Origin: Xanthobacteraceae bacterium
Lineage (GTDB): Bacteria; Pseudomonadota; Alphaproteobacteria; Rhizobiales; Xanthobacteraceae
DNA length: 64,000 nt
Direction: 5' to 3'
Assembly (NCBI GenBank): GCA_019752575.1
Contig: JAIELW010000001.1
Location: 62,001-126,000, forward strand
In this document: piece after piece, positions 9,590-62,270 of the stretch
How the letters are laid out: each line of letters begins with the position of its first letter
Numbering within the stretch: position 1 is the first letter of the stretch
Position numbers and translations under genes: made by a program
The notes under the pieces: generated by a model
Told to the model about the DNA's origin: nothing
What the model saw: only the letters and a program-made list of their open reading frames with translations
Databases searched by the model: none

Positions 9590-9618
9590 ATGGGGATCCT
9601 TATGAGCGCGGCACCCTA

Positions 9619-9680: not shown

Positions 9681-9692
9681 GCAAATTATATT

Positions 9693-9718
9693 CGCAAGTC
9701 GGCTAAAGCCGACTTGCG
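9693..9718. repeat. Perfect 11-bp hairpin spanning the surf1 stop codon
   Basis: Arms CGCAAGTCGGC and GCCGACTTGCG pair exactly around a TAAA loop. On the coding strand the loop carries most of the surf1 TAG stop codon, so the last four codons and the stop are built into the hairpin. It is one of a pair with the hairpin at 9657-9680, 12 bases away. Possible roles are 3' end protection of the oxidase transcript or slowing of termination-reinitiation. It has no poly-T tail. Confidence 0.7.
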
Positions 9719-10838: not shown

Positions 10839-10868
10839 CTCCGCCTTTCTATGTCGCGATTGCAGTAT

Positions 10869-11720: not shown

Positions 11721-11736
11721 TTTCGTTCTCTCCACT

Positions 11737-11760
11737 CGATGCCGGGTTTACCCGGCATCG
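11737..11760. repeat. Perfect 10-bp hairpin with TTTA loop before ctaE
   Basis: Arms CGATGCCGGG and CCCGGCATCG are exact reverse complements around ttta. It lies 16 bases before the ctaE start codon, in the 122-base gap after ctaG, and ends just 5' of the Shine-Dalgarno. In a ctaG-ctaE transcript it would form a strong stem that leaves the ribosome site free, a plausible processing or stability element. It belongs to the same hairpin design as the two near surf1. Confidence 0.7.
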
Positions 11761-11842
11761 ATAATTTAGAGCCGGCTTGGGTCGCCCCCGCCGGCATCTG
11801 GTCGTTTCTATCAGCGCCTCGCGGGAAGCCGCAAGGCGAAGG

Positions 11843-45221: not shown

Positions 45222-45231
45222 TCCTCGCTCC

Positions 45232-46008: not shown

Positions 46009-46011
46009 GCG

Positions 46012-46860
46012 CTATGCCGCCTTCTTCGCGTGAGCCGCGAAAACTTCGGGACCCTTGCGCATGACGTTCTCTTCCATCCAGGCCAAGAACGTATCGCGCT
46101 CGCGCGCGATCTCATCCCACGCTTTATAGAAAGCGTTGTCGCGCTTGTAATAGCCGTGCGTGTAGGAGGGATGCGCACCACCCGGCACCTCGGCGATCGC
46201 TTTCACGGTCCAGCCCGGCAACACGACCGAATTTGGCGACGGCGGGTTCAACTCGTCCACGATCTCCTCGACCGTGACGACGGAGCGTTTCGCAGCCAGC
46301 ACCGCTTCCTTTTGCACGCCGACAATTCCTTCGAGCAGCACGTTGCCTTTTCTGTCGGCTTTCTGCGCGTGAATGATCGCGACATCAAGCTTCACCGCAG
46401 GCACGGTCGCGAGCTTCTCGCTGGTATAAGGGCACGTCACTTCTTTAATGCTTGGATTTACGCGCGGCAGTTCCGCCCCGCGGTAGCCGCGGAACACCGC
46501 GAATGGCAGCCCCGCAGCCGCCGCATCGTATGCGTTCGCCATCGCGGCGTGCGAATGCTCGACGATCTCGATCTTGTTCGGCCAGCCGTTCTGGTAGGCG
46601 TCGCGGAAGCGATGCAGCGAGCCGACGCCGGGATTGCCGCCCCAGGAGAATGTCATCCGCTCCGCGCAGCCCATGCCGATCAACTGATCGTAGATCAGAT
46701 CCGGCGTCATGCGGATCAGCGACAGGCGCTTACGCTTCTGGCGGATGATCTCGTGTCCGGCAGCGAAGGGAATAAGATGCGTGAAGCCTTCCATCGCGAC
46801 GGCGTCGCCGTCCTTCACGTTCGCTTCGACCGCTTCGGAAAGTTTCAGAAATGTAGCCAT
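46012..46860 (-). CDS. catI: 3-oxoadipate CoA-transferase subunit alpha (CatI/glutaconate-transferase type)
   Basis: This 282-residue alpha subunit has EGFTHLIPFAAGHEIIRQ and MTPDLIYDQLIGMGCAERM (in pieces), family-I CoA-transferase blocks of the CatI/GctA branch. LATVPAVKLDVAIIHAQKADRKGN is also conserved (split). It is the first gene of a three-gene catI-catJ-pcaF operon. Its promoter region (46861-46974) carries two spaced GTTCCAGC repeats also seen in the upstream region of the LIV operon. Confidence 0.82.
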   Translation of the reverse strand: MATFLKLSEAVEANVKDGDAVAMEGFTHLIPFAAGHEIIRQKRKRLSLIRMTPDLIYDQLIGMGCAERMTFSWGGNPGVGSLHRFRDAYQNGWPNKIEIVEHSHAAMANAYDAAAAGLPFAVFRGYRGAELPRVNPSIKEVTCPYTSEKLATVPAVKLDVAIIHAQKADRKGNVLLEGIVGVQKEAVLAAKRSVVTVEEIVDELNPPSPNSVVLPGWTVKAIAEVPGGAHPSYTHGYYKRDNAFYKAWDEIARERDTFLAWMEENVMRKGPEVFAAHAKKAA

Positions 46861-46924
46861 TAACGCACCGTTTCACGCGGAAAATTAGCGCGCGAAACTA
46901 GGGTGCATCACCTGCCATCGTCAA

Positions 46925-46964
46925 GGAACGGGAACGTTCCAGCGCTTGCCCGCTTTGTTCCAGC
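46925..46964 (-). promoter_or_regulatory. Candidate operator: spaced GCTGGAAC repeats upstream of the CoA-transferase operon
   Basis: On the minus strand GCTGGAAC occurs twice, at 46957-46964 and 46936-46943, spaced 21 bases (two helical turns). The proximal copy continues as GCTGGAACGTTCCCG, and ggaacg-ggaa-cgttcc at 46925-46940 forms an inverted repeat. It lies 65-104 bases upstream of catI. The LIV operon upstream region has GCTGGAACGTTTCCG with a second GCTAGAAC 22 bases on. Tandem sites at 21-22 bases suit an IclR- or LysR-type pathway regulator, but none is encoded next to it. Confidence 0.5.
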
Positions 46965-46974
46965 GGGCTTTCCA

Positions 46975-47137
46975 TTTGGCGCGTTTTCTTAACGCGAACC
47001 GGTGCCCACTTCGCTTGAAATGCGCTTCTGTTTGGCGCGTTTTCTTAACGCGAACCGGTGCCCACTTCGCTTGAAATGCGCTTCTGTTTGGCGTGTTCCT
47101 TAACGCGAACCGGTGCCCACTTCGCTCGAAGACGCTT
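46975..47137. repeat. Three tandem copies of a 56-bp repeat (Rhizobiales 'gaaccggtgcccactt' type)
   Basis: Copies start at 46975, 47031 and 47087. The first two copies are essentially identical; the third is a base shorter and diverges after cacttcgct. Each copy has a small stem (cgcgtt-ttctt-aacgcg) followed by aaccggtgcccacttcgct. The core resembles a dispersed element common in Rhizobiales. It fills the gap after livM, so on the minus strand it follows the livM stop and precedes nothing. It is probably a terminator-like or passive expansion. The units are too few and spacerless for CRISPR. Confidence 0.8.
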
Positions 47138-48163
47138 TCAGAGCCTGATGCGCAGAAGGTTCGCGATTTCGCCGACGATGCCGCGGCGGAACAGAAGCAC
47201 GCAGGCGACGAAAATTCCGCCCTGGATGATCGTGACCCACTGGCCGAAACTCGCGAGATAATTCTGCATCGCGATAATCGTGAAGGCGCCGATCACGGGA
47301 CCGAAGATGGTGCCGAGACCGCCGAGCAAGGTCATCAAGACGACTTCACCCGACATCGACCAGTGCACGTCGGTCAGCGACGCGTTCTGCACGACGAAAG
47401 GTTTGATCGCACCGGCAAGACCCGCGATCGCGGCCGATAGCGTGAAGGCGACGAGCTTGTATTTGTCGGTCTTGTAGCCGAGCGAAATCGCGCGCTGTTC
47501 GTTCTCGCGGATCGCTTTCAGCACTTCGCCGAAGGGCGAGTGAATCACGCGATAGATCAACAGGAACCCGAGCAGGAACATGACCATCACGAAGACGTAC
47601 ATGACGCGCTCATTCGCAAGATTGAAGAGACCGAACAGATAGCCGCGCGGCACCGGCTGGATACCGTCTTCGCCGCCGGTGAACGGGGCCTGCACCGCGA
47701 AGAAGTACATCATCTGCGCGAGCGCGAGCGTAATCATCGCGAAATAGATGCCCTGACGGCGGATCGCGATCGAACCCGCGACAAAGCCGAGTACGGCCGC
47801 GCCCATGACCGCGAGGAAGATCGCAAGTTCGGGCACCATCGGCGAATTCGTGATGGTGAGCCATTGCCAGGAGCCCGCCCAATACGGAATCGAAATCTTC
47901 CCGACTTTCGCGAGATGCGCCGCGAAGTAGCTCGCCCAGCCGAAATAAAGCGCGTGGCCGAAGGACAATAGCCCCACGTAGCCGATCAAGAGATTGAACG
48001 CGCAGGCAAACAACGCGAAGCAAAGCGCCTTCATCAGGAACGGCGGATAGACAAAGGCCGGAAGAATCGCGAGTACCGCGACCATGACCACGAAAGCGAT
48101 CAGTTCGCTTTTGTGACCGTGCGCTTCCGCCGGCGCGGTGAGTTGTCCGGTTGCCTGTGCCAT
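47138..48163 (-). CDS. livM: LIV-type ABC transporter permease (LivM-like)
   Basis: This 341-residue permease has about nine helices and the LivM loop FGEVLKAIRENEQRAISLGYKTDKYKL (in pieces). GGLGTIFGPVIGAFTIIAMQN is the conserved C-terminal block. It starts one base after the livH stop and ends at the tandem repeat. With LivH, LivF, LivG and the binding protein it would form a HAAT-family importer. The substrate is more likely aromatic than branched-chain amino acids, see the binding protein. Confidence 0.92.
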   Translation of the reverse strand: MAQATGQLTAPAEAHGHKSELIAFVVMVAVLAILPAFVYPPFLMKALCFALFACAFNLLIGYVGLLSFGHALYFGWASYFAAHLAKVGKISIPYWAGSWQWLTITNSPMVPELAIFLAVMGAAVLGFVAGSIAIRRQGIYFAMITLALAQMMYFFAVQAPFTGGEDGIQPVPRGYLFGLFNLANERVMYVFVMVMFLLGFLLIYRVIHSPFGEVLKAIRENEQRAISLGYKTDKYKLVAFTLSAAIAGLAGAIKPFVVQNASLTDVHWSMSGEVVLMTLLGGLGTIFGPVIGAFTIIAMQNYLASFGQWVTIIQGGIFVACVLLFRRGIVGEIANLLRIRL

Positions 48164-48164
48164 T

Positions 48165-49040
48165 TTACGCCACCCTTCCGAACAGACCCGCGGGCCGCGT
48201 CACAAGTACGATCACCATGATGACGAAAATCACGGTGTTCGACGCTTCCGGGAAGAAATACTTGGTGAGGCCCTCGACAACGCCGAGGCCGAAGCCTGTA
48301 ACGATCGCGCCCATGATCGAGCCCATGCCGCCGATCACGACGACCGCGAACACGACAATGATGATGTCGGCGCCCATGGTCGGGTTCACCGCATAGATAG
48401 GTGCCGCCATCACGCCCGCGAGCGCCGCAAGCCCAACACCGAAGCCGTAGGTGAGCGTGATCATGCGCGGCACGTTGATGCCGAAGGCGCGCACGAGCGT
48501 CGGGTTTTCGGTCGCAGCGCGCAGATAAGCGCCAAGCCGCGTTTTCTCGATCATGTACCAGGTGCCGAGACACACCGCGAGCGAGAAGCAAACGACCCAC
48601 GCGCGGTAATTCGGCAGGAACGTGAAGCCGAGATCGCGCACACCGGTGAGCTGCGGCGGAATCTGATACGGCAGGCCGGACGAACCATACTGCTGCCGGA
48701 ACAGGCCTTGAATGATGAGCGCTAGGCCGAAGGTGAGCAGCAAGCCGTACAAGTGATCGAGCTTATAGAGCCACTGCAAAAATGCGCGCTCGATCACGAT
48801 ACCGATGCCGCCGACGATCACGGGCGCCAGGATCAGCGCCCACCAGTAATTGAGCCCGGCGTATTGCAGAAGGAAATACGCTGCAAACGCACCCATCATG
48901 TATTGGGCGCCGTGCGCGAAATTGATGATGTTGAGCATGCCGAAGATGACGGCGAGCCCGAGGCTCAAAAGCGCATAGAACGAGCCGTTGATCAGCCCGA
49001 TCAGCAATTGGCCGAACAGCGCCGGCAGATTGATGTCCAT
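48165..49040 (-). CDS. livH: LIV-type ABC transporter permease (LivH-like)
   Basis: This 291-residue permease has eight helices. The first half has LINGSFYALLSLGLAVIFGMLNIINFAHG, the defining LivH block (split here), and the second half has RAATENPTLVRAFGINVPRM with the coupling loop. GGMGSIMGAIVTGFGLGVVE is conserved. The ATG follows the binding-protein stop by 61 bases, and livM follows with one base between. Confidence 0.92.
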   Translation of the reverse strand: MDINLPALFGQLLIGLINGSFYALLSLGLAVIFGMLNIINFAHGAQYMMGAFAAYFLLQYAGLNYWWALILAPVIVGGIGIVIERAFLQWLYKLDHLYGLLLTFGLALIIQGLFRQQYGSSGLPYQIPPQLTGVRDLGFTFLPNYRAWVVCFSLAVCLGTWYMIEKTRLGAYLRAATENPTLVRAFGINVPRMITLTYGFGVGLAALAGVMAAPIYAVNPTMGADIIIVVFAVVVIGGMGSIMGAIVTGFGLGVVEGLTKYFFPEASNTVIFVIMVIVLVTRPAGLFGRVA

Positions 49041-49101
49041 CGGTCCCCCCGAGCGGTCGAGGAGCGGGCGGTTCGCGCCCGCTCCTCAGCCGTAGTTTAC
49101 G

Positions 49102-50313
49102 TTAGCCGCTGACGAGCGGGCACTTGCCGTCGGCGAGCGGACGGAAGGCTTCGTTCGCGGGAATGGTCGCGCGGAGCTTGTAGTAGTCCCACGGACCCTT
49201 CGATTCTTCCGGCTTCTTCACTTCGAAGAGATACATCGGATGAACCTTGCGGCCGTCCTGGCGGATTTCGCCGTCGCCGAAGAGCGCGTCCTTGGTCTTG
49301 TTCTTCTTCATGTGCTCGACCACAGCTTTGCCGTCACTGTCGCTTTTCAGCGCGACGACCGTCTTCAGGTAATGCGTAACGGCCGAGTAGACGCCGGCAT
49401 GGATCATGCTCGGATAGACGCCGCGGTTCGCCGCTGCGAAGCGCTTCGCAAAGGCGCGGTTCGCGTCATTCATGTCCCAGTACCACGCTTCCGTGAAGAT
49501 CAGGCCCTGTGCGGTCTTGAGACCCAGCGAGTGCACGTCGGTCAGGAACACGAGGAGACCGGCGAGGTTCTGGCCCTTCTGCGTGATGCCGAATTCGGCG
49601 GCCTGTTTGATGGCGTTGGTGGTGTCGGCGCCCGCGTTCGCAAGACCGATGATCTTCGCTTTAGACGCCTGCGCTTGCAGCAGGAACGAAGAGAAGTCCT
49701 GGCCCGGGAACGGGTGACGGACCTGACCGACGACCTTGCCGCCGTTCTTGACGACGACCGCCGCGGTGTCGCGCTCGAGCGCATGACCGAAGGCATAGTC
49801 GGCGGTGAGGAAGAACCAGGTATCGCCGCCGGTCTTCACGATCGCATTGCCGGTGCCGTTGGCGAGCGCCCAGGTGTCATAGGTCCAGTGAATCGTATTC
49901 GGCGAGCAGCGCGGACCCGTGAGGTCGGACGAAGCGGCGCCGGAGACGAGGAACACCTTGTTCTTTTCCTTGACGATCTCGTTCACCGCAAGCGCGACCG
50001 ACGAGGTCGGCACGTCGACGATCACGTCGACCTTGTCGACGTCGATCCACTGGCGAACGATGTTCGAGCCGATGTCCGGCTTGTTCTGGTGATCGGCGCC
50101 GACGACTTCGATCTTGAGACCCTTTACGAGATCGCCGAGATCTTCGATCGCGAGACGCGCCGCGAGTACGGAGCCGGGACCGGCAAGGTCGGCATAGGTG
50201 CCCGACATGTCGTTCATGACGCCGATCTTGATGACGCCGTCGGAAATCTGCCCATAGGCAGCCGTGGCGGATACCATCGCCGCCGACAGAATTGCAGTTC
50301 GTAGCAGTTTCAT
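49102..50313 (-). CDS. LIV-type ABC transporter substrate-binding protein
   Basis: This 403-residue periplasmic protein has a signal peptide (MKLLRTAILSAAMVSATAAYG) and the two-lobed LivJ fold: IKIGVMNDMSGTYADLAG, then RQWIDVDKVDVIVDVPTSSV and NTIHWTYDTWALANGTG. The last third (GIIFTEAWYWDMNDANRAF region) matches the group of binding proteins in Rhodopseudomonas-type bacteria that bind aromatic acids. This suggests benzoate- or coumarate-like ligands instead of leucine. No ligand can be fixed by reading. It sits between livF and livH. Confidence 0.88.
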   Translation of the reverse strand: MKLLRTAILSAAMVSATAAYGQISDGVIKIGVMNDMSGTYADLAGPGSVLAARLAIEDLGDLVKGLKIEVVGADHQNKPDIGSNIVRQWIDVDKVDVIVDVPTSSVALAVNEIVKEKNKVFLVSGAASSDLTGPRCSPNTIHWTYDTWALANGTGNAIVKTGGDTWFFLTADYAFGHALERDTAAVVVKNGGKVVGQVRHPFPGQDFSSFLLQAQASKAKIIGLANAGADTTNAIKQAAEFGITQKGQNLAGLLVFLTDVHSLGLKTAQGLIFTEAWYWDMNDANRAFAKRFAAANRGVYPSMIHAGVYSAVTHYLKTVVALKSDSDGKAVVEHMKKNKTKDALFGDGEIRQDGRKVHPMYLFEVKKPEESKGPWDYYKLRATIPANEAFRPLADGKCPLVSG

Positions 50314-50356
50314 TCTCTTACCTCCCGTTTATCAGACGCCATTCGCGGCGGCTGTC

Positions 50357-51073
50357 TTAAACACCCAGATATTCATGCAGAGTTTCTAGTTTTTTGTTCA
50401 GTTCGGAATTGGCGAACTGCTCCACGATCTTTCCGTGTTCCATGATGTAGTAACGGTCCGCGACGGTGGATGCGAAGCGGAAATTCTGTTCGACGAGCAG
50501 GATGGTGAAACCCTGCTCCTTCAGTTTGCGAATTGTATTCCCAATCTGCTGAATGATGACGGGCGCCAAGCCTTCGGTCGGCTCGTCGAGAAGCAGGAGC
50601 CGCGCGCCGGTGCGCAGAATGCGGCCGATCGCCAGCATCTGCTGCTCACCGCCGGAGAGCTTGGTGCCCTGACTTTTCAGGCGCTCGCGCAGGTTCGGAA
50701 ACAGCTCGAAAATCTGTTCGCGCGTGAGACCGCCGGGCCGCACCTGCGGCGGCAGCATGAGATTCTCTTCGACATCCAGCGAAGCAAAAATGCCGCGCTC
50801 CTCCGGACAGAAGGCAAGGCCCGCACGAGCAATCGCATCGGAAGGGAGATTAATCAACTCGCGGCCTTCGAATTTCACCGAACCGGTTCGTTTGCCGACG
50901 ATGCCCATAACGGATTTCATCGTCGTGGTCTTGCCGGCGCCGTTGCGCCCCAAGAGCGTGACAACCTCGCCCGCGTTCACGTTCAGCGTCGCGCCATGAA
51001 GAATATGCGACTCGCCGTACCAAGCGTGCAGGTCGTTAATTTCGAGCAGCGGGCCAAAAGTGCGGTCAAGCAT
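50357..51073 (-). CDS. livF: LIV-type ABC transporter ATP-binding protein (LivF-like)
   Basis: This 238-residue ATPase has Walker A GRNGAGKTT, a signature in LSGGEQQMLAIGRIL and Walker B RLLLLDEPTEGLAP. GLAFCPEERGIFASLDVEENL marks the LivF branch. The ATG overlaps the livG stop by 8 bases. The gene is followed by the binding protein after 43 bases. Confidence 0.93.
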   Translation of the reverse strand: MLDRTFGPLLEINDLHAWYGESHILHGATLNVNAGEVVTLLGRNGAGKTTTMKSVMGIVGKRTGSVKFEGRELINLPSDAIARAGLAFCPEERGIFASLDVEENLMLPPQVRPGGLTREQIFELFPNLRERLKSQGTKLSGGEQQMLAIGRILRTGARLLLLDEPTEGLAPVIIQQIGNTIRKLKEQGFTILLVEQNFRFASTVADRYYIMEHGKIVEQFANSELNKKLETLHEYLGV

Positions 51074-51821
51074 GGCCGGTCCCCATATAGGCTTCGCGTA
51101 CCTGCGGATTTTCCGAGACCGTTTTGTAATCGCCTTCGGTCAGCACGCGGCCGCGGGTAAGCACCGTAATCTTGTTCGAGAGGTTCGAGACGACGCTGAG
51201 ATTGTGTTCGACCATCAGCACCGTGCGGTTGGCAGCGACCCTCTTGATGAGCGCGGCGATACGATCGACATCCTCGTGGCCCATGCCGGCGGTCGGTTCG
51301 TCGAGAAGCAACATCTCGGGATCGAGCGCGAGCGTGGTCGCGATCTCTAACGCGCGCTTGCGCCCGTAGGGAAGCTCTACCGCGGTCGTGTTTTCGAAGG
51401 CCGAAAGACCGACGTCGTTGATCAGCGAGCGGGCGCGGTCGTTATAAACATTCAGCACCGAAGCCGGGCGCCAGAAATCGAACGAGCCGCCGCGTTTGCG
51501 CTGAAGCGCGATGCGCACGTTTTCGAGCACGGTGAGATGCGGGAAGACCGCGGAAATCTGGAACGAGCGCACCACACCGAGCCGCGCGATATCGGCGGGC
51601 CTCAACTGCGTGATATCCTGCCCTTTGTATTTGATGGTGCCGCGGGTCGGCGTCAGGAATTTCGTGAGCAGGTTGAAGCACGTGGTCTTGCCCGCGCCGT
51701 TCGGTCCGATCAGCGCGTGGATGGTGCCACGTTCGACTTTGAGATTCACATCGCTGACGGCGACGAAGCCCGCGAATTCCTTGGTCAGATTTTCCGTCTC
51801 AAGTACGTATTTGTCACTCAT
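51066..51821 (-). CDS. livG: LIV-type ABC transporter ATP-binding protein (LivG-like)
   Basis: This 251-residue ATPase has Walker A IGPNGAGKTTCFN, the LivG block FLTPTRGTIKYKG and RSFQISAVFPHLTVLENVRIAL (partial). Walker B is LLLDEPTAGMGHED. The frame is open 29 codons upstream; ATG at 51821 gives MSDKYVLETENL, the normal start. It is the first gene of the livG-livF-SBP-livH-livM block, with a 475-base upstream region. Confidence 0.93.
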   Translation of the reverse strand: MSDKYVLETENLTKEFAGFVAVSDVNLKVERGTIHALIGPNGAGKTTCFNLLTKFLTPTRGTIKYKGQDITQLRPADIARLGVVRSFQISAVFPHLTVLENVRIALQRKRGGSFDFWRPASVLNVYNDRARSLINDVGLSAFENTTAVELPYGRKRALEIATTLALDPEMLLLDEPTAGMGHEDVDRIAALIKRVAANRTVLMVEHNLSVVSNLSNKITVLTRGRVLTEGDYKTVSENPQVREAYMGTGHA

Positions 51822-52296
51822 ACGCCGCCGACCCACCCTGCACTTTCTTACGTTCCGCCCTTGCGAGGCTCCAGCCGATTTTCCGCGCCGTTTCCGCAGA
51901 TCGTCCACCGCAACCAGGTTTTCTTCGAGAGAAATGCGGAAGCGGTAGACGGCTTCTCACGAACCGCTCGCAAGATTGTTTCGTGTTGGACCTTTATCCG
52001 TTCTGCTGGAACGTTTCCGGCCAAGCGCTAGAACACGGGTATTTCGGTGTGGCGTCAAGGGGTTTCCGCGGTGCGGAAATTCGCGAAAAATGCGTGCGCT
52101 CAAATTTCAAGCATCCCTGCGACACTTTTTTTCCTTTGCTCGCCGAATAGTAGCGCGGAGATTGCGCTTTAACGGGCTTACTACCTGATAAGGCTGGAAA
52201 AATTTGTGAGCATTGCTTCGCTGGCCGCAGTCAGCCGACTATTCGCGCGGTTAAACCAGGCCCGCGGCAATCGGCGGCCGCCATCGGGGTGATCCA
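51822..52296. promoter_or_regulatory. Upstream region of the LIV operon and the methyltransferase gene
   Basis: These 475 bases contain no supportable gene. They hold the candidate operator pair at 52005-52034, an AT-richer stretch around 52090-52210, and no recognised -35/-10 pair. They must supply the minus-strand promoter of livG and the plus-strand promoter of the methyltransferase. Confidence 0.5.
52005..52034 (+). promoter_or_regulatory. Candidate operator: spaced GCTGGAAC/GCTAGAAC repeats upstream of the LIV operon
   Basis: GCTGGAAC at 52005-52012 and GCTAGAAC at 52027-52034 are spaced 22 bases. The first extends as GCTGGAACGTTTCCG, matching 14 of 15 bases with the element upstream of catI. 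The second, CAAGCGCTAGAAC, matches CAAGCGCTGGAAC there. It lies about 185 bases from the livG start, in the opposite orientation relative to transcription. It may bind the same regulator as the catI site. Confidence 0.5.
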
Positions 52297-53078: not shown

Positions 53079-53972
53079 CTACTTCCTGTATCGCAGCGCT
53101 TCGACTAGGGCGATGAAAGCTGGCGACGATTGCCGGCGGCTTGGATAATAGAGGTGATAGCCCGCCCAGTGCGGCGAGAATTTCTGAAGCACGCGGATTA
53201 TTTTGCCGCTCTTCACATAAGGCAGAATTACCTCTTCAGGAAGATAGGCTAGCCCGAAGCCGTCAATTACCGCCTCCAGTGAATTGAACGTGTTATTGAA
53301 AGTAAGTTGGCCGTCAACGCGAACTTTGAATTCGCGTCCTTTCTCTTCAAACTCCCAAGCGTAAATCCCGCCAGAGGTCGGGAAACGGAAATTGATACAC
53401 TTGTGTCTTATCAATTCCTTTGGATGCTTTGGCTCAGGATATTTCGAGAAATAGGTTTTTGATCCAACAACGGCCAAACAGAAATCCGGCCCGATACGCG
53501 CTGAGATCATGTCCTTGGCGAGATTCTCCCCCATTCGCACCCCGGCGTCGAACCGTTCCTTGACGATATCGCTCAATCCGTTGTCGAGGAGCAACTCGAC
53601 TTTGATGTCCGGATACCGAGGAAGAAATTTTCTCAGTTTGGGCCAGAGTACATGCTTGATGGCATAGTCGGAGGCTGCAATGCGGATCGTACCTGATGGC
53701 TTGTCTCGAAGCGCGCTCAGCGCGTCAATTTGAGCTTCGATCTCCTCGAAGTGTGGGCCCAAACTCTCAAGCAGTCTCTCTCCTGCCTCCGTGGGAGACA
53801 CCGCCCGTGTTGTTCTCGTCAGCAGGCGAAGTCCGAGTTTGCTTTCAAGCTGACGAACCGTGTGACTTAAGGCCGATTGTGAGACGCCCATCTTGGCCGC
53901 AGCTTTCGTGAAACTGCGCTCGCGGGCCACCGCCAGAAAGGCAAGCAAATCGTTGAAGTTCTCGCGCGGCAC
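53079..53972 (-). CDS. LysR family transcriptional regulator
   Basis: This 297-residue regulator has the LysR helix-turn-helix (NFNDLLAFLAVARERSF, then AAAKMGVSQSALSHTVRQLE) and a substrate-binding domain starting TIRIAASDYAIKHVLWP. The subgroup (SDYAIKHVLWPKL, then RFPTSGGIYAWEFEEKG) resembles regulators often placed beside aldehyde oxidoreductases and aldo-keto reductases. The start is GTG. A 16-bp palindrome lies 26 bases upstream. The paoABC-type operon about 1 kb to the right is the probable target. Confidence 0.88.
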   Translation of the reverse strand: MPRENFNDLLAFLAVARERSFTKAAAKMGVSQSALSHTVRQLESKLGLRLLTRTTRAVSPTEAGERLLESLGPHFEEIEAQIDALSALRDKPSGTIRIAASDYAIKHVLWPKLRKFLPRYPDIKVELLLDNGLSDIVKERFDAGVRMGENLAKDMISARIGPDFCLAVVGSKTYFSKYPEPKHPKELIRHKCINFRFPTSGGIYAWEFEEKGREFKVRVDGQLTFNNTFNSLEAVIDGFGLAYLPEEVILPYVKSGKIIRVLQKFSPHWAGYHLYYPSRRQSSPAFIALVEALRYRK

Positions 53973-53997
53973 TCATCAGCCCCTTTCACGCTTGTGT

Positions 53998-54013
53998 GCT
54001 GACTATAGTCAGC
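53998..54013. promoter_or_regulatory. 16-bp perfect palindrome upstream of the LysR gene
   Basis: GCTGACTATAGTCAGC equals its own reverse complement. It lies 26 bases upstream of the LysR start codon and 34 bases past the end of the cyclophilin-like gene, in the 74-base gap between the two. It is a candidate autoregulatory operator. A second copy was not found upstream of paoA. Confidence 0.55.
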
Positions 54014-54046
54014 TCTCAAAAATCGTACAAAAGCGTAAATTAGAAC

Positions 54047-54457
54047 TCAGTCCGCGCGTTCAACGCGCACTATAACTGATCCCGGACGATCAAATATTGA
54101 AACGTCTCCCGTCATCTTGCCGAGAATGATAATGCCAGGCGGCGGCACTCGTCCGGAACGATAATAGATGACGAAATGAGTTGAATTCCACAATCCGAGC
54201 GTACCAACCGAGAAATCCAACTGCCGCTCGATTTCGGGCAAAGCGGACGGCAGATATCCCGTTTTCTCCTGACGAAGATGATCTCGCATTTCGATGCTTA
54301 GTGGCAGCATCCGAAGCAGCGCTTTAGTCGCGGCGTTATCTATCAACTCCGCGCTTACCTGGCCCCACGCAGAGGCAATTGTCACTCGTTGCTGCGCCAT
54401 TGCGTTCCCGGCCAATCCCAGCGTGACGACGATCAGTCTAATCGTCCACCTCAACAT
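54047..54457 (-). CDS. Secreted cyclophilin-like fold protein
   Basis: This 136-residue protein has a signal peptide (MLRWTIRLIVVTLGLAGNAMAQ). The remainder follows the cyclophilin-like family: VSAELIDNAATKALLRMLPLSIEMRDHL (in pieces), then SVGTLGLWNSTHFVIYYRSG and PGIIILGKMTGDV. These small barrels are of unknown activity, and no isomerase residues are evident. It shares a strand with the LysR gene downstream. Proteins of this fold are often near oxidoreductases, so a link with paoABC is plausible but inferred. Confidence 0.75.
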   Translation of the reverse strand: MLRWTIRLIVVTLGLAGNAMAQQRVTIASAWGQVSAELIDNAATKALLRMLPLSIEMRDHLRQEKTGYLPSALPEIERQLDFSVGTLGLWNSTHFVIYYRSGRVPPPGIIILGKMTGDVSIFDRPGSVIVRVERAD

Positions 54458-55034
54458 TGCTCGTGCTCCGCTTCGCGGGCGTTAAAGGCCCGCTCGCTTG
54501 TTCTTTCGCACATAGCAAGGCCGCTGAATAAGGCCCTCCGGCTTCTTGAGGTTATGAGGAAGCTTCATGAGTGCTTCCGTTCATTACTCCTTCTCATGAG
54601 ACGAACTGTTCCTGAGCTTCAGACAATTGATGAATGTAGCTCATGATTGCATGCCATTTATAATGGCTAATAGGAAACGCGCGTTTCCATTATCTCCATA
54701 GGCGTCAGACCGGAAAATTCGCCGGCCGCTTTCGGCGATCAGATTCCGGTGCAGCACTTCGTACAGAGAAATCATATGAATTTTGACGCTGCTGGGGGAA
54801 GAACCAGCATCGCGAACAGTGGGAGCGCTCATTGGAGTGCCGTGATCGCGCGTCCGGGTTCATGCCGGTCAGCCCGCTAACACGCGCTGCTCTGCTCTTA
54901 GCGGCTTTCCTGGCGCTTCTGCTTTCAGGCAAGCAGCGGCTTCAATCGGCCTAACGTCATTACGAATTGTCTTTGGAACTAGGTAAGCGAACGGCAATTA
55001 ACCCCAATCGACCAGCCAGGAGGTTGTGCACGAC
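54458..55034. promoter_or_regulatory. Intergenic region between the cyclophilin-like gene and paoA
   Basis: These 577 bases contain no supportable gene; short open frames exist but have no recognisable features. A hairpin (gcgggc, gttaaag loop, gcccgc) lies at 54475-54493, 17 bases upstream of the cyclophilin-like start on the minus strand. AGGAGG at 55018-55023 serves paoA. It is the likely promoter region of the pao operon, but no -35/-10 pair was convincing. Confidence 0.5.
54475..54493. repeat. GC-rich hairpin upstream of the cyclophilin-like gene
   Basis: Arms gcgggc and gcccgc pair around gttaaag. On the minus strand the loop reads CTTTAAC, again centred on TTTA like the hairpins near ctaE and surf1. 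It lies 17 bases before the start codon and could influence translation initiation. The stem is only 6 bp, so chance occurrence is more likely than for the others. Confidence 0.4.
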
Positions 55035-55667
55035 ATGACAAAACCCAGCGAGATCGAACTATCCCGGCGTCAGTTGCTAGCGGCGACCGGCGCCTCCGTC
55101 GCAGCAGCGACCTACCCTTCCGCCGTCGCAGCACAGGCATCTACACAAACGCCGAGCACCGCCAGAGTTTCCTTCACTGTGAATAACACCGTCCGCAAGC
55201 TCGAAGTCGATACGCGCACGACGCTGCTTGATGCGCTTCGAGAGAACTTGCGGCTGCCCGGCACCAAGAAGGGCTGCGATCATGGCCAATGCGGCGCTTG
55301 TACCGTGATCGTGGATGGCAAACGCATTAATTCATGCCTGTCACTCGCTGTTATGCACGAAGGCGGCAAGATCACCACCGTCGAGGGGCTCGGCAATCCA
55401 AAGCGGTTGCACCCGATGCAGGCTGCCTTTGTGAAACACGACGGATTTCAATGCGGCTTCTGTACTCCCGGCCAAATTTGTTCGGCTGTGGCTGTGCTGG
55501 ACGAGATCAAAGCTGGCATTCCGAGTCACGTCGCAGCCGACTTGAATGCGGCGCCCCAAATTTCCAACGCAGAGCTTCGCGAGCGTATGAGCGGCAATAT
55601 CTGCCGTTGCGGCGCGTACTCCAACATCGTGGATGCGATCACGGAAGTCGCAGGGAGGAAAGCATGA
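55035..55667 (+). CDS. paoA: Aldehyde oxidoreductase 2Fe-2S subunit with Tat signal (PaoA-like)
   Basis: This 210-residue protein has a Tat motif ([12 protein letters not shown]) and two [2Fe-2S] sites. Cys81, Cys86, Cys89 and Cys101 form the plant-ferredoxin cluster; Cys140, Cys143, Cys190 and Cys192 form the second. It is the electron-transfer subunit of a periplasmic molybdenum enzyme related to E. coli PaoABC. AGGAGG lies 11 bases before the ATG; a GTG at 55026 is too close to it. It overlaps paoB by 4 bases. Confidence 0.92.
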
Positions 55668-56614
55668 AGCCCTTCACTTACCAGCGCGTCCGCTCACCGG
55701 CAGAAGCAGTCGCTGCTTTCGGGCGAAACAAGAACGCGAAGTTTATCGCTGGCGGTACAAACCTGCTCGACCTGATGAAGTTGCAGATCGAAGCGCCATC
55801 GCACCTCATCGACGTTAACGGTTTGGCTCTCGACAAGATCGAGATGACGCCTGACGGCGGCCTGCGAATCGGCGCCTTGGTCCGGAACACCGATCTTGCC
55901 GCACATCCGCGCGTTCGGAGGGACTATGCGGTTCTTGCTCGTGCGCTCTTGGCAGGCGCGTCGGGTCAGCTTCGCAACAGGGCAACGACCGCGGGCAATT
56001 TATTGCAACGGACGCGCTGTCCTTATTTCTATGACACCAATCAGCCCTGCAATAAGCGCCAACCTGGCAGCGGCTGTGCAGCCATAGGCGGATTCAGCCG
56101 TCAGCTCGCGGTTATTGGCAGCAGCCAAGCTTGCATCGCCACGCATCCCAGCGATATGGCCGTCGCGCTTCGCGTGCTCGACGCCGTTGTCGAGACGGTC
56201 AAGACAGGTGGCGTAACGCGTCAGATCAACATTCGTGACTTTTATCGGCTGCCCGGCGACACGCCTCATATCGAAACGAACCTTGCAGACGGCGAACTGA
56301 TCACCGCAGTCGTGCTGCCAAGGCCAGTCGAAGGCAAGCACGGTTACCGCAAGGTACGTGATCGCGCTTCCTATGCGTTCGCGCTGGTTTCCGTGGCTTC
56401 CATCATCAGCCGCGATGGCAGCGGCAAGGTGGCGCTTGGCGGCGTCGCGCACATGCCCTGGAGAAACGAAACGGCAGAAGCGCAGCTACCGAAGGGCGCA
56501 AAGGCAGTCGCCGAAAATCTACTCTCAGACGCAAAACCTACCGAACACAACGCTTTCAAGATCACGCTTGCAGAGCGCGCACTCGCCTCTGCTATTTCCG
56601 AAGCGAAGGGGTAA
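55664..56614 (+). CDS. paoB: Aldehyde oxidoreductase FAD subunit (PaoB-like, with 4Fe-4S insert)
   Basis: This 316-residue FAD subunit has [20 protein letters not shown] and the strongly conserved [20 protein letters not shown] (split here). Cysteines at 119, 129, 138 and 157 in the [21 protein letters not shown] region (in pieces) match the extra 4Fe-4S site of E. coli Pao[16 protein letters not shown] follows. The ATG at 55664 has AGGGAGGA upstream. A much longer open frame exists upstream, but it overlaps paoA and is not real. Confidence 0.92.
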
Positions 56615-56617
56615 GCC

Positions 56618-58825
56618 ATGAAATTCGATGCTCCAGCAACGAACAACCCGATTGATCAACTGAAAGTGGTCGGGAAACCGCTTGACCGTGTTGATGGCCC
56701 CTTAAAAGTCACGGGCACTGCCGCTTACGCCCACGACCGGTATGATTCGATACCAAATCAGGCCTATGGCTATGTGTTGGGATCGGCCATCGCCAAGGGC
56801 AAGATCAAGCCGATGAACGTGTCTGCGGCAAAAGCAGCAGCCGGTGTGCTCGGCGTTGTTACCGCGGAGAACGCAGGAAAGCTCGGCAAAGGCGATTATA
56901 ATACCGCCAAACTGCTTGGCGGACCTGAGGTCGATCACTACCACCAGGCGATTGCAATTGTTGTCGCAGAGACTTTCGAACAGGCACGCGCCGCAGCGCA
57001 GCTGATTCAGGTCGAGTATACCAAAGCGGACGGCAGCTACGATCTTCACGCGGCGATGGCAACTGCGATTCGACCCGAGAAGATCTTCGGTGGCGAGGCA
57101 GATAGTTCGGCCGGTGACTTCGACAAAGGTTTTGCTGCCGCGCCGATCAAATTCGACGCGACCTACGAAACGCCGGATCAGGCTCATGCGATGATGGAGC
57201 CTCATGCCACCATCGCGGCATGGCACGGAGACACTCTGACGCTTTGGACTTCCAATCAGATGATCGATTGGAGCACCGGCGACATTGCGAAAACTTTGGG
57301 CATTCCAAAAGAGAAAGTGCGCCTGAGTTCGCCGTTCATCGGTGGTGGCTTCGGCGGCAAGCTTTGGATACGAGCTGACGCATTGATGGCGGCGCTTGGT
57401 GCGCGTGCAACCGGCCGTCCGGTGAAAGTCGCTCTCGCCCGGCCATTCATGTTCAACAACACGGTGCACCGCCCGGCGACCGTTCAACGCATCCGGATCG
57501 GCGCAACGCAGCAAGGCAAGATTACCGCTATCGGTCACGAAAGCTGGTCCGGCGACCTTCCTGGCGGCGGACCGGAAGTGGCTGTGATGCAGACCCGTTT
57601 GCTCTATGCGGGTGAGAACCGGATGACCGCCATGCGTCTCGCCGTTCTCGATCTTCCGGAAGCCAACGCAATGCGCGCTCCGGGCGAAGCACCCGGAATG
57701 ATGGCGCTGGAAATTGCAATGGACGAGATGGCGGAAAAGCTGGGTCTCGACCCTGTCGAGTTCAGGATCATGAACGATACGCAAGTCGATCCTGAGAATC
57801 CGTCGCGGCCTTTTTCAATGCGCACTTTCGCAGAATGCTTCAAAACTGGAGCAGAGAAATTCGGCTGGAACAATCGAAACGCCAAACCCGCAACCAGACG
57901 CGATGGCCGCTGGCTTCTTGGGATGGGTGTCGCGGCAGCGTTCCGAAACAATCTCTTGATGAAATCCGCCGCACGGGTTCGGCTCGACAGTCGCGGTACA
58001 GTCACCGTCGAAACGGATATGACGGACATCGGCACCGGCAGCTACACGATTATTGCACAGACCGCCGCCGAAATGATGGGCGTGACGCTCGATAAAGTTG
58101 CGGTCCGGCTTGGAGACTCAACGCTTCCCGTTTCCGCAGGCTCCGGCGGCCAATGGGGCGGTGCATGCTCGACCGCAGGGGTCTATGCAGCCTGCGTAAA
58201 GTTGCGGGAGGAAGTGGCAAGAGCACTGGGCTTGAACCACCCCGACGCTACTTTCGTGGACGGTGAACTCCGTGTGGGCAACCGCCGTATTCCATTGGCG
58301 CAAGCGGCCGCGAAGAAGGAATTGGTCGGAGAAGATCAGATCGAATACTCCGACGTTGACAAGAAATATCAGCAGTCAACTTTCGGGTCTCATTTCGTGG
58401 AAGTCGGCGTGGATGCCGCGACCGGCGAGGTTCGCATTCGCCGGATGCTCGCGGTCTGTTCCGCAGGCAGAATTCTCAATCCTAAAACCGCCCGCAGCCA
58501 GGTGATTGGTGCCATGACGATGGGGGTGGGCGCTGCGCTCATGGAAGAACTGGCCGTCGATAAGAGAGCTGGCTTCTTCGTGAACCACGATCTCGCGAGC
58601 TACGAGGTGCCTGTGCACGCGGATATTCCCCATCAGGAAGTTATTTTCCTCGATGAGGTCGATCCGCTGGCCACTCCGATGAAAGCCAAGGGTGTTGGCG
58701 AACTTGGAATCTGCGGAGTGGCTGCGGCGGTCGCTAACGCTATTTACAATGCTACCGGCGTGAGGGTGCGCAACTACCCGATTACGCTGGACAAATACAT
58801 TAAAGGCTTGCCTGAGGTCGCGTGA
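56618..58825 (+). CDS. paoC: Aldehyde oxidoreductase molybdenum-cofactor subunit (PaoC-like)
   Basis: The 735-residue catalytic subunit of the xanthine-oxidase superfamily has the Mo-site motifs [15 protein letters not shown] and [15 protein letters not shown]. The catalytic glutamate is Glu695 in [12 protein letters not shown], equivalent to Glu692 of E. coli Pao[21 protein letters not shown] and [17 protein letters not shown] are also conserved. It should oxidise aldehydes, probably aromatic ones, to acids with water. It must be exported together with PaoA. No PaoD/XdhC chaperone gene is in the window. Confidence 0.93.
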
Positions 58826-59361
58826 GCCCGATGATCGCTCGCTACACGTTGAGCCGTCGCCATCTACTGAGTGCCGTAACACTGCTCCCTGCAATGAGCA
58901 TTACGCAGCTCGCTTATGCGCAGGGAAGCAAGAACCAGCATAACAATGTAACCGGGAGCGCCGGAATGAAAATCACGCGCACAGGCTCGTTGCCATTCAC
59001 CAAAGGTCCTGAGGAATATTTCACGGGCTCCGTGAGGATCGATACGCGTTTCGAAGCGACAAGTCCGGCCCGTGCAAGCGTCGCTCTTGTCAGTTTCGAG
59101 CCGGGAGCACGCACGGCCTGGCACACTCATCCGTTAGGCCAAACGCTTGTAGTGGCAACGGGACTTGGTTGGGTTCAATCAGAGGGCGGTCAAAAGCAGG
59201 AAATTCGTCCTGGCGACATCGTGTGGATTCCGCCGGGCGAAAAGCATTGGCACGGAGCAACCTCGACCACCGCAATGTCGCATTATGCCATCGGGGAATC
59301 GCTCAATGGAAAGGCCGTTGATTGGCTTGAGAAGGTCACAGACAGCGACTTTGTGAAGTAA
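58822..59361 (+). CDS. Secreted cupin-domain protein
   Basis: This 179-residue protein has a twin-arginine-like signal ([18 protein letters not shown]). A cupin barrel follows, with metal ligands in [19 protein letters not shown] and [32 protein letters not shown] is the second cupin motif. The GTG start overlaps the paoC stop by 4 bases (GTGA); an ATG at 58831 is the alternative. Coupling to paoC suggests a role with the same substrate, for example as a decarboxylase or dioxygenase, but this is inference. Confidence 0.85.
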
Positions 59362-59424: not shown

Positions 59425-60744
59425 ATGCTAAAAATTCTCGGCAATCAGACATATCGGAACCTTTTTGCCGCGCAGGTCATCGCGCTCGTGGGAACCGGGC
59501 TCCTGACGGTAGCGCTCAGCCTCCTCGCCTACGAACTTGCCGGTTCCAATGCGGGCGTCGTGCTCGGCACCGCGCTCGCCATCAAGATGGGCGCCTACAT
59601 TGTCCTCGCGCCGATTGCACAGGCGTTTGCCGCACGCCTTCCACGACGCGGCTTTCTGATTGCAATGGATTGCGTGCGTGCGGCCGCGGCACTTGCGCTG
59701 CCGTTCATTACACAAATCTGGCAAATCTACCTGCTGATCTTCATTCTGCAGGCCGCTTCTGCTGCATTCACGCCGACCTTTCAGGCAGTAATCCCCGACA
59801 TTCTTCCTGACGAAAAGGAGTACACAAACGCGCTCACGCTCTCCCGCCTTGCCTATGATCTGGAGACGTTATTCAGCCCGGCACTGGCGGGCCTTCTACT
59901 CACACTAATCAGTTTTCATTGGCTGTTTGCCGGAACTGCCGTTGGCTTCATCGTTTCGGCGCTATTCGTGCTGCCGGTCCAAATCCCGAACACGGCAACT
60001 GCGACTGCAAATATCTGGCAGCGCATAACCCAAGGCATTGTCGTTTATCTGGCCACCCCCCGCCTGCGCGGTCTGCTCGCGTTAAACCTTGCCGTCGCCG
60101 CTGCCGGCGCGATGGTATTTGTGAACACGGTGGTGATCGTTCGTGATCTACTCGGAGGCAACGAACGAGAGGTCGCCGTTACCCTGGCGTTCTTCGGCGG
60201 TGGCTCGATGATCGCCGCGCTTGCGATCTCACGCATTCTAGATCGATACGGCGACCGTGCTGTTATGCTGACAGCGGCAGTATTTCTGTGTGTCGTTCAA
60301 CTGCTTTTCATTTTCGTAACGCAGGCGGTAGGCATTCCCTCATGGACGCTGATATTGACCGGCTGGGCACTTATTGGCGCGTCCTATTCGGCAGTGCTAA
60401 TTCCTTCAGGAAGGCTCACCCGCCGCTCGGCAGAATCCAGCGCACGGCCTTCTCTGTTCGCTGCGCAGTTTTCGCTCTCTCATGTCTGCTGGCTTATTAC
60501 CTATCCACTAGCGGGTTGGGCGGTCGCTCGTTTCGGTTTGCCGACCAGCTTTCTGATTCTCGGCGGGATTGCGTTCATAGCTACTGCGGCAGCGATGATG
60601 TTGTGGCGCGACGAGAAGCCGACGATTGCTCATGCGCATCCCGACTTACCGTCAGATCATCCTCATCTGCGCGAACATGGGCGCAGCGATAAACATGAGC
60701 ACGTATTTTATATCGATCAGTTACACAGACGCTGGCCTGCTTAG
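59425..60744 (+). CDS. nreB: MFS transporter, NreB-like nickel exporter with histidine-rich tail
   Basis: This 439-residue major-facilitator protein opens LKILGNQTYRNLFAAQVIAL, then GTGLLTVALSLLAYELAGSNAG, as in the NreB nickel-resistance family. About eleven helices are visible. The C-terminus after residue 400 is rich in histidine (AHAHPDLPSDHPHLREHG, then KHEHVFYIDQLHRR), a metal-binding tail expected of NreB. It stands next to a NicO remnant and DmeF, so a nickel/cobalt export role is well supported by context. Its stop meets the NicO remnant end. Confidence 0.8.
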   Translation: MLKILGNQTYRNLFAAQVIALVGTGLLTVALSLLAYELAGSNAGVVLGTALAIKMGAYIVLAPIAQAFAARLPRRGFLIAMDCVRAAAALALPFITQIWQIYLLIFILQAASAAFTPTFQAVIPDILPDEKEYTNALTLSRLAYDLETLFSPALAGLLLTLISFHWLFAGTAVGFIVSALFVLPVQIPNTATATANIWQRITQGIVVYLATPRLRGLLALNLAVAAAGAMVFVNTVVIVRDLLGGNEREVAVTLAFFGGGSMIAALAISRILDRYGDRAVMLTAAVFLCVVQLLFIFVTQAVGIPSWTLILTGWALIGASYSAVLIPSGRLTRRSAESSARPSLFAAQFSLSHVCWLITYPLAGWAVARFGLPTSFLILGGIAFIATAAAMMLWRDEKPTIAHAHPDLPSDHPHLREHGRSDKHEHVFYIDQLHRRWPA

Positions 60745-61220
60745 CCAGACGCGCGGACGGCACCACCAATAAGCAGGAGCAAGCCGGCCACATCCCCGCA
60801 CCAGCAGTTCGGTCGAATTACCTTGTCGTTCCATGAATCCGAGCAGCCAATTTCGAGCGAAAGCGATCGTGATCGCAACGGCAGATAGTGTCGGCGCGAC
60901 ACCAATCATCATGGTCACGGCAAGTGCGTAACGCAATTCGTGTACGCCGCGAGACTGCGCGAGAAACATCGTGAATAAGGTAAGAGGACAGGGATTAGAC
61001 CCGCGAATATGCCGACCACAATCCCTTCATTGTGAACGTGGCCTTGCGGCAACCCACGCCATAACAGCCAAATTCCTAGAGCGGCTAATGTAGCCTCGCT
61101 GATTTCAAGCGACGGCGCACGACCCGCTCCGGCTATTGTGCGCTTTACGAGCCACGTCGCGGCAAGCGCAACCACAACCGCTGACGCGACGTGGACGAAA
61201 GCCGACGCTGTAATCGTCAT
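60741..61220 (-). pseudogene. NicO/RcnA-family nickel/cobalt exporter, N-terminally truncated with two frameshifts
   Basis: Reading minus-strand pieces in three frames gives a NicO C-terminal half. The first piece is AFVHVASAVVVALAATWLVK, then GAGRAPSLEI and GIVVGIFAGLIP. The next is CPLTLFTMFLAQSRGVHELRY, then MMIGVAPTLSAVAIT, and the last is DVAGLLLLIGGAVRASG and stop. The first frame break is a GGG run at 60991-60993 (GGGG expected); the second is an extra base in the CCCC run at 60794-60797. The N-terminal His/Asp half is absent. Sequencing error in homopolymers is possible, but truncation argues for decay. Confidence 0.75.
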
Positions 61221-61301
61221 TGCATGTTCAACTTTTTTATTGCCTTGCAAAACGCGGGATTCATGCGTCAATAGAGACACCGTTAGAGGCGAGGCGACCC
61301 A

Positions 61302-62270
61302 ATGCATACGAAATCGCTAAAAGACTTAACCCACGAGCATGTTTTTCTTGGCGAAGACCATGCCCGCAACGAGCGGCGTACATGGCTCGTTGTTGCGCTA
61401 ACTTTCGCGATGATGGTTGCGGAGATAGTTGCCGGTTCAGTTTATGGCTCTATGGCCTTGCTAGCCGATGGCTGGCACATGGCCACTCATGTCGCTGCAA
61501 TCGGGATCGCCGCTTTTGCGTACCGCTTCGCGCGCACTCATGCAAACGATTCGCGATTTTCGTTTGGCACCGGCAAGATTGGCGATCTCGCTGCCTTTGC
61601 TAGTGCACTGATTCTCGCATTGATCGCGCTTTTAATCGCATATGAATCAGCAATGCGATTGTTCTCGCCGGTATCAATCAGGTTTGGCGAAGCGACTGCC
61701 GTTGCCGCTATCGGACTTGCCGTGAATCTCTTGAGTGCGTGGCTACTATTCGACAAAAGCAACCATGATCATTCGCACCATCATCAAGATCGTGTCGGCC
61801 ACCATCATCACTCACATGATGAAGATCGCGATTTAAACCTTCGAGCGGCTTACTTGCATGTTCTCGCTGACGCATTGACTTCGGTGTTGGCAATCGTTGC
61901 GCTTTTGATGGGGCGATACATGGGGTGGACTTGGTTTGATCCGGTGATTGGGATTGTTGGCGCGCTGGTTATCGCACGTTGGGCGGCTGGACTCATCCGC
62001 TCCTCGTCGGCAACTTTGTTGGATACTGTACCAGACGTTCAGTTGGCTAAAGAGTTGCGAGCAAAATTAGAAACCGGCACTGATCGAGTTATCGACCTTC
62101 ACTTGTGGCGGGTTGGCCCCGGCCACCAAGCTGTGATCATTTCAATTGTTTCGGACGACCCACAAACGCCAGCATTCTACAAGCATAAGCTCGCATTAGT
62201 AACGGGCCTCAGTCATGTCACGGTGGAGGTTGAGGCTTGCCCCGATACGCATGAGAAGCAAGCCGCGTAA
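61302..62270 (+). CDS. dmeF: Cation diffusion facilitator DmeF (cobalt/nickel efflux)
   Basis: This 322-residue CDF transporter has the DmeF N-terminus: LTHEHVFLGEDHARNERRTW. Transport-site helices follow in LADGWHMATHVAAIG and VLADALTSVLAIVALLMG. A histidine-rich loop (NHDHSHHHQDRVGHHHHSHD, about residues 155-176) binds metal, and the cytoplasmic domain contains DLHLWRVGPGHQAVIISI. It exports Co(II) and possibly Ni(II). The regulator DmeR was not seen beside it. It is divergent from the NicO remnant, with 81 bases between. Confidence 0.93.
   Translation: MHTKSLKDLTHEHVFLGEDHARNERRTWLVVALTFAMMVAEIVAGSVYGSMALLADGWHMATHVAAIGIAAFAYRFARTHANDSRFSFGTGKIGDLAAFASALILALIALLIAYESAMRLFSPVSIRFGEATAVAAIGLAVNLLSAWLLFDKSNHDHSHHHQDRVGHHHHSHDEDRDLNLRAAYLHVLADALTSVLAIVALLMGRYMGWTWFDPVIGIVGALVIARWAAGLIRSSSATLLDTVPDVQLAKELRAKLETGTDRVIDLHLWRVGPGHQAVIISIVSDDPQTPAFYKHKLALVTGLSHVTVEVEACPDTHEKQAA

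Follow-up and report, generated by a model that had tools for sequence, protein, structure and literature searches.

The stretch of DNA analysed here, hereafter the window, is a 64,000-nucleotide part of contig JAIELW010000001.1 from a Xanthobacteraceae bacterium. Near its end lie six genes coding for a LysR-type regulator, a cyclophilin-like protein, the three subunits of a PaoABC-type aldehyde oxidoreductase and a cupin, which the original prediction had proposed as one candidate pathway. All six genes were found where that prediction had placed them. As they are intact and of known families, chance is no issue for their presence, and their grouping was tested separately. The features of the locus are as follows.

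53079-53972, minus strand: LysR-type regulator, 297 aa (PF00126, HTH_1, and PF03466, LysR_substrate)
53998-54013, no strand: perfect 16-bp palindrome GCTGACTATAGTCAGC, candidate operator, 26 bp upstream of the LysR start
54047-54457, minus strand: predicted secreted protein of cyclophilin-like fold, 136 aa (PF18050), upstream of LysR
54458-55025, no strand: divergent intergenic region between both units, function inferred, containing another perfect 16-bp palindrome (54673-54688)
55026-55667, plus strand: PaoA, subunit with two [2Fe-2S] clusters and a twin-arginine leader (NF008514; 5g5g_A)
55664-56614, plus strand: PaoB, FAD subunit with four cysteines in an extra loop (5g5g_B)
56618-58825, plus strand: PaoC, molybdenum cofactor subunit with Glu695 (NF041671; 5g5g_C)
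58822-59361, plus strand: cupin of the (R)-mandelonitrile lyase (manganese hydroxynitrile lyase, Mn-HNL) family with a twin-arginine-type leader (NF049940; 4bif, 4uxa, 8oz8)

The locus consists of two divergent units, the minus strand carrying the cyclophilin-like gene followed by the LysR gene and the plus strand carrying paoA, paoB, paoC and the cupin gene. Genes of the plus-strand unit (55026-59361) overlap or almost touch; ATGA joins paoA to paoB, and the GTGA overlap of paoC and the cupin gene noted earlier was borne out. Since the LysR and cyclophilin-like genes diverge from paoABC-cupin, there are at least two transcription units, and the earlier grouping of all these genes as a single operon had to be abandoned.

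Identity of the encoded proteins

The best solved match of each Pao subunit is E. coli PaoABC (5g5g/5g5h). PaoA scores 369.1 bits against NF008514 (cut-off 322) and begins with a leader containing SRRQLL, judged by eye and not by a predictor. PaoC scores 1365.7 bits against NF041671 (cut-off 1180), matches 5g5g_C with 1121.6 bits and bears Glu695 within GVGELG. PaoB is over the cut-off of no NCBIfam model; its best PDB match is E. coli PaoB (5g5g_B, E 7.9e-151), and Cys 119, 129, 138 and 157 are present. The three traits on which the enzyme had first been recognized, namely the twin-arginine translocation (Tat) signal of PaoA, the four extra cysteines of PaoB and Glu695 of PaoC, were all confirmed; we assume the customary roles for the extra cysteines and for Glu695, which we take to be catalytic. 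PaoABC is thus likely a periplasmic aldehyde oxidoreductase, for which oxidation of aromatic aldehydes is predicted.

The E. coli enzyme shares with that of the window its three subunits, the twin-arginine leader of PaoA, the extra cysteines of PaoB and the glutamate of PaoC. Unlike E. coli, which has paoABCD and yagP, a gene for a LysR-type substrate domain, the window has no adjoining paoD, its cupin gene is coupled to paoC, and its LysR and cyclophilin-like genes diverge from paoA. With just 35% identity over 105 residues, yagP was rejected as an orthologue of the LysR gene. E. coli PaoABC favours aromatic aldehydes, and at low pH cinnamaldehyde completely inhibited cells without genes of the pao operon (PMC3958847).

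No PaoD/XdhC gene lies in this stretch, and a search of the whole genome for XdhC_C returned one match, on another contig. Hence the original prediction was right in that the chaperone is absent from the locus and encoded elsewhere, but this absence is ordinary and was dismissed as something needing explanation: 73 of the 80 paoC loci described below show no such gene in their flanks either, and seven do (six detected with the E. coli PaoD query, seven with the genome's own XdhC query), although some flanks are short. On contig C3 of the same genome (L146, positions 9016-12282; L numbers designate loci), XdhC seems to be split into an N-part (9016-9345) and a C-part (9980-10672) that flank a LysE-like gene; the next gene includes a MocA-like portion (151.0 bits, below its cut-off of 186.45). 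These genes are the likely source of molybdenum-cofactor maturation.

The cupin had been described as a plain cupin, a description that proved too general. It scores 190.8 bits against NF049940, the NCBI equivalog model for (R)-mandelonitrile lyase (cut-off 140), and matches the PDB chains 4bif, 8oz8 and 4uxa with E values of 3.7e-54 to 7.1e-52 (133 residues aligned at E 3.7e-54). The PDB names these entries cupin 2 protein; we take them to be GtHNL. Residues H53, H55, Q59, H94, H96 and H106 of this relative, presumably metal ligands or active-site residues by our own count of the numbering, are all kept, as H101, H103, Q107, H142, H144 and H154. The cupin leader is of the twin-arginine type (SRRHLLS ... 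AYA-Q, by eye); this added leader and the position within a pao operon set the protein apart from GtHNL. The cupin accordingly belongs, by family assignment, to the manganese hydroxynitrile lyases rather than to the cupins at large, and cyanohydrin cleavage with R selectivity would be the activity to expect of a true lyase of this kind. Cleavage of cyanohydrins, which yields an aldehyde, is the known laboratory activity of the family, and membership in it offers a chemical link to the aldehyde oxidase. On contig C5 the genome carries a second copy that likewise exceeds the cut-off; it shows no evident leader and has no neighbours of this kind.

The cyclophilin-like protein scores 74.4 bits against PF18050 (Cyclophil_like2, cut-off 22.7) and carries a signal-like leader, MLRWTIRLIVVTLGLAGNAMAQ, again judged by eye. 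A structure model built from four sequences (pLDDT 83) resembles TM1367 (Z 16.4 over 118 residues, root-mean-square deviation 2.1; VIA Z) and the Pictet-Spenglerases McbB and KslB (Z 15.4 over 113-117 residues, deviation 1.9-2.1, chains about twice as long) more than the true cyclophilins listed (Z at most 13.1), and Foldseek likewise puts TM1367 and KslB before cyclophilins. As modelled, the fold is shared with these proteins, whereas the window protein is single-domain, predicted to be secreted and only 16-19% identical to them; the fold implies no activity. KslB acts on carbonyl compounds, according to its PDB entry titles.

Recurrence of the cupin and the LysR lineage beside paoC

The best 80 of 592 confirmed PaoC relatives were taken as paoC loci, each considered together with at most 10 kb of flanking sequence, less in some cases; cupins were called at a phmmer score of at least 100 bits and LysR genes of the window lineage at 300 bits or more. 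HNL-type cupins occur in the flanks of 18 of these loci. The 19 cupins observed there compare with 0.21 expected from their density in 40 of the genomes (38 over the cut-off in 226.2 Mb). LysR genes of the window lineage accompany 15 of the 18 cupin-bearing loci versus 3 of the 62 without a cupin (Fisher p 9e-11), the exceptions being L059, L101 and L108 (cupin without LysR) and L074, L104 and L105 (LysR without cupin). Related species are not independent in these counts; gene orders differ, though. The order LysR|paoABC-cupin is found in Mesorhizobium and Bradyrhizobium (L056, L060, L081), and in Pseudomonas paoABC comes first, followed by cupin|LysR. Other arrangements are LysR|CMD-cupin-paoABC (L075), LysR|cupin-paoABC (L102) and, in Paeniroseomonas aquatica (L169), LysR|cupin-cyclophilin-like-MFS-hydrolase-paoABC-CMD in one cluster; Pseudoduganella umbonata (L135) has two paoABC copies with a cupin gene beside each. 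Annotated paoC plasmid loci numbered 40 in a listing from 1155 matching records, and three of them were inspected. That of Terrarubrum flagellatum (L220) holds LysR|cupin, CMD, a transporter gene (MFS), paoA, paoB and paoC (LysR 401, cupin 141 bits); in the other two (L219, L221), neither a cupin nor a LysR of the lineage exceeds the score limits applied. The association of cupin, LysR and paoABC is therefore real. It reaches beyond true PaoC, as paoC-like genes under the model cut-off (about 500-870 bits to the window PaoC) lie near a cupin or cyclophilin-like gene in L144, L145 and L141.

The cyclophilin-like family is rarer beside paoC, but enriched there as well. Fifty paoC genomes were searched whole, ten of them picked because their paoC locus held a cupin or LysR gene, and 14 gave a total of 16 matches to PF18050. 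Three matches lie in paoC flanks (L101, L105, L118), versus 0.04 expected, and all three are outside the ten picked loci; a profile search of all 80 paoC loci returned the same three. The gene comes immediately after paoC in L101 and in L118. Ten further regions, with 12 matches, hold a LysR of at least 300 bits in nine cases, a cupin in three and a Pao or other molybdenum hydroxylase in five; the sixteenth match (G253, 32.9 bits) falls outside the regions opened. One locus, L141, reads LysR|paoABC-like-cyclophilin-like-SDR. The idea that the cupin and cyclophilin-like genes co-occur with paoABC in other genomes is thus sustained for both families.

A class sample of 190 genomes, not chosen by paoC, gave 18 cupins over the cut-off in 16 genomes, the two of the window's genome included and several contigs being short. 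A LysR of at least 300 bits is close to seven of them (window, L147, L149, L152, L153 and two in L159). Conversely, 14 such LysR genes occur in 11 of the genomes, the window included; a cupin gene lies within about 5 kb of six, and a module-type gene within the same distance of 12 (exceptions G026 and G033). With equal 1.5-kb flanks, a cupin adjoins LysR in 4 of 11 loci versus none of 19 lower-scoring LysR control loci. Since the families of aldo/keto reductases (AKR), SDR and hydrolases are large, and an aldo/keto reductase adjoins 8 of the 19 controls too, the cupin is the telling part of the LysR neighbourhood. LysR and cupin form the more general pair, and paoABC is one of several cassettes beside it, the others being an aldo/keto reductase, an SDR, CMD, a hydrolase or, in L105, L153, L161 and L167, a molybdenum hydroxylase of another kind. 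PF18050 itself is over its cut-off in 19 of the 190 genomes, in four of them above 70 bits.

Close relatives of the LysR also lie elsewhere. Three loci picked from 25 listed of 741 records carry it near a two-subunit molybdenum hydroxylase in Rhizobium leguminosarum (76.7% identity on plasmids of the species; L216), near a cytochrome P460 gene in R. johnstonii (73.0%; L217) and adjoining a cyclophilin-like gene in Tistrella (73.3%; L218). This second, two-subunit type of molybdenum hydroxylase recurs beside the LysR lineage or its lower-scoring relatives (L153, L105, L161, L167, L216; weaker in L206, L182 and L199). A Klebsiella plasmid (L007) exemplifies clusters of cupin, CMD, aldo/keto reductase, alpha-beta hydrolase, cyclophilin-like and LysR genes. 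It resembles the window in its LysR relatives (342-345 bits), HNL-type cupin (186.7 bits) and cyclophilin-like protein; unlike the window, it has an annotated aldo/keto reductase, and the annotation of the stretch covered includes no paoABC.

The window has four perfect 16-bp palindromes, and two of them sit in non-coding parts of the locus. Of 54 LysR relatives compared, the two closest have no perfect palindrome with arms of at least 6 in the 200 nt upstream. A shared operator was rejected as well, because perfect palindromes upstream of LysR genes vary in sequence among these relatives; consequently, no common box is claimed.

Export leaders and compartment

Leaders of 56 cupins were read by eye without a predictor, leaving out the duplicate loci L132 and L139. 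Twin-arginine leaders were found only in the window, L060, L081, L108 and L144, that is, in 5 of the 7 cupins encoded directly after paoC versus none of the 49 others (Fisher p 5e-6, or 4e-5 if the window is left out). Bradyrhizobium accounts for three of the five. The remaining two cupins directly after paoC are a CMD fusion (L056) and an unclear case (L059). Eleven further cupins were read, one of which has a twin-arginine leader (L003, on a Bradyrhizobium plasmid, with no paoABC annotated in 16.5 kb), so the rule is not strict. Of the 56 cupins, 24 lie no more than about 10 kb from paoC; 17 of these have twin-arginine or Sec-like leaders, 4 have none, 2 are CMD fusions and 1 is unclear; the L220 cupin has a Sec-like leader. 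Export as a simple divide between pao-linked and unlinked cupins was discarded, and only the twin-arginine pattern is put forward. For this genome the leaders make it likely that every non-regulatory product acts in the periplasm, as had been claimed, but this is no rule, the cupin of L169 being leaderless.

The manganese cupin MncA, a cyanobacterial protein, illustrates what such a leader may mean: its Tat export after cytoplasmic folding goes with manganese, whereas the Sec-exported CucA takes copper (PMC10087151). Like MncA, the window protein is a Mn-family cupin with a twin-arginine leader; the comparison concerns only the export logic and not the cupin family.

Functional interpretation

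On balance, we read the locus as a carbonyl-processing locus under LysR control with exported products, locally assembled from a mosaic module that is widespread, in which the cupin would release an aldehyde that PaoABC would oxidise, a reading that we hold to be just about probable. PaoABC would be folded and loaded in the cytoplasm, exported by Tat, and would oxidise mainly aromatic aldehydes in the periplasm. The cupin, whose Tat-type leader makes metal uptake in the cytoplasm before export possible, would acquire its metal there, most likely cleave a carbonyl adduct, perhaps a cyanohydrin, and hand the (aromatic) aldehyde to PaoABC. LysR would sense the substrate or the aldehyde, and the secreted cyclophilin-like protein would be an accessory, perhaps binding the carbonyl or the adduct. 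A sharper version, in which a Tat-exported manganese lyase frees aromatic aldehydes from cyanohydrin-like adducts, a Tat-exported molybdenum oxidase converts them to acids and the secreted Pictet-Spenglerase-related cyclophilin-fold protein traps the carbonyl, is the most doubtful of the readings considered here. The prior statement that no defined pathway joins these genes agrees with the literature searched, which, in titles and the openings of abstracts, shows no evident paper on a pao-HNL cupin module; known enzymes occur here in a recurring combination for which we found no description there.

Several observations weigh against the favoured reading. The cupin gene is missing from the flanks of 62 of the 80 paoC loci and the cyclophilin-like gene from those of 77. 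Within the class sample, many HNL-type cupins stand beside neither paoABC nor the LysR; a paoC-like gene (at least 500 bits) is close to only 3 of the 18 (window, L144, L145), and among the 4 of 190 genomes with a PaoC over the cut-off, only that of the window also has a cupin over the cut-off. The genes do belong together in that their association recurs but, as LysR and cupin pair without paoABC and most paoC loci have no cupin, paoABC is one exchangeable cassette and the module is not the single fixed pathway first envisaged. Leaderless cupins occur near paoC (L101, L102, one of two in L118, L145, L169), the Pseudomonas cupins near paoC have Sec-like leaders, and paoABC is less firmly linked to the export route because of L003 and L169. 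As for the cupin itself, three further positions were compared with its relative; A40 and V42 are kept and Q110 is replaced by Gly158, a difference from GtHNL. Among the nine genes scanned between 52297 and 62270, there is no glycosidase or cyanide-handling enzyme besides the cupin. As of 2017, what HNLs do in bacteria was described as still awaiting exploration (PMC5413884). In favour of the reading is the citral response of Acinetobacter baumannii, in which the five spots most strongly induced correspond to D0C713 (BchC-type), D0C711 (a cupin) and D0C712 (CMD) (PMC7677002); their genes would be neighbours, to judge by the consecutive accessions, and D0C711 bears on the cupin of the window only if it is of the same family.

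This citral response also bears on an explanation to which we give a little less than an even chance, namely a general module against electrophile stress. LysR would answer reactive aldehydes or quinones, PaoABC, AKR, SDR and CMD would be alternative detoxifying enzymes, and the cupin would act on another adduct or as a manganese oxygenase, its HNL activity being a laboratory side activity. Such a module would account for the mosaic gene content of the loci and for the aldo/keto reductases that often adjoin even lower-scoring LysR relatives, and TM1459, a different manganese cupin, cleaves alkenes to aldehydes (PMC10947199). It nevertheless leaves the kept presumed HNL site unexplained.

A specific cyanogen route appears unlikely. 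According to it, a true (R)-HNL in the periplasm would split plant cyanohydrins, for instance (R)-mandelonitrile or 4-hydroxymandelonitrile of the same configuration, and PaoABC would produce benzoate or 4-hydroxybenzoate to be used or exported. Besides the equivalog-level score and the six kept positions of the cupin, an engineered GtHNL as well as AcHNL is active with aromatic aldehydes (PMC8097096), and the genome encodes pobA (542.7 bits, cut-off 538.7), protocatechuate dioxygenase beta (361.7, cut-off 296.4) and pcaF (TIGR02430, 690.5, cut-off 597), so that an acid such as 4-hydroxybenzoate could be used. This route is opposed by the nine scanned genes, which include no glycosidase and no cyanide enzyme other than the cupin, by cupins of the family that also accompany AKR, SDR or CMD genes, and by the pcaF and Liv genes not being found near paoC in the other loci searched.

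The pcaF gene lies on the minus strand of the window, after two CoA-transferase-like genes (44007-46860) and adjoining a Liv/Urt-type ABC transporter (47138-51908, minus strand); about 1.2 kb and one methyltransferase gene separate this region from LysR. It reads as an aromatic-acid end pathway with a possible importer. A pao link to the pcaF, CoA-transferase-like and Liv genes (44007-51908) found no support: of the loci compared, among them the 80 paoC loci, the window alone gave matches at the thresholds applied. Downstream of the cupin gene (59425-62270) lie genes for an MFS transporter and for the Co/Ni efflux protein DmeF (NF033827, 467 bits).

Rather improbable, finally, is a loose neighbourhood in which paoABC-cupin and cyclophilin-LysR are independent units adjacent by happenstance: the two units are divergent in the window and apart in Bradyrhizobium sp. 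sGM-13, where a cyclophilin-LysR pair without pao (L166; LysR 227/297 and cyclophilin-like 81/136 identical to those of the window) and paoABC-cupin, the cupin having a twin-arginine leader (L108), occupy different loci, yet other joins exist in L169, L118, L101 and L141, and LysR and cupin are linked.

The recurring tie of this cupin family to a LysR lineage and to a well-studied aldehyde oxidase makes a role for bacterial HNLs testable, with candidates for the regulator, the compartment and the product. Metal choice can be compared among close relatives whose leaders are of the twin-arginine type, Sec-like or absent. Should the two-enzyme route hold, it would give bacterial HNLs a physiological role, in which the export route, Tat or Sec, would set the metal.

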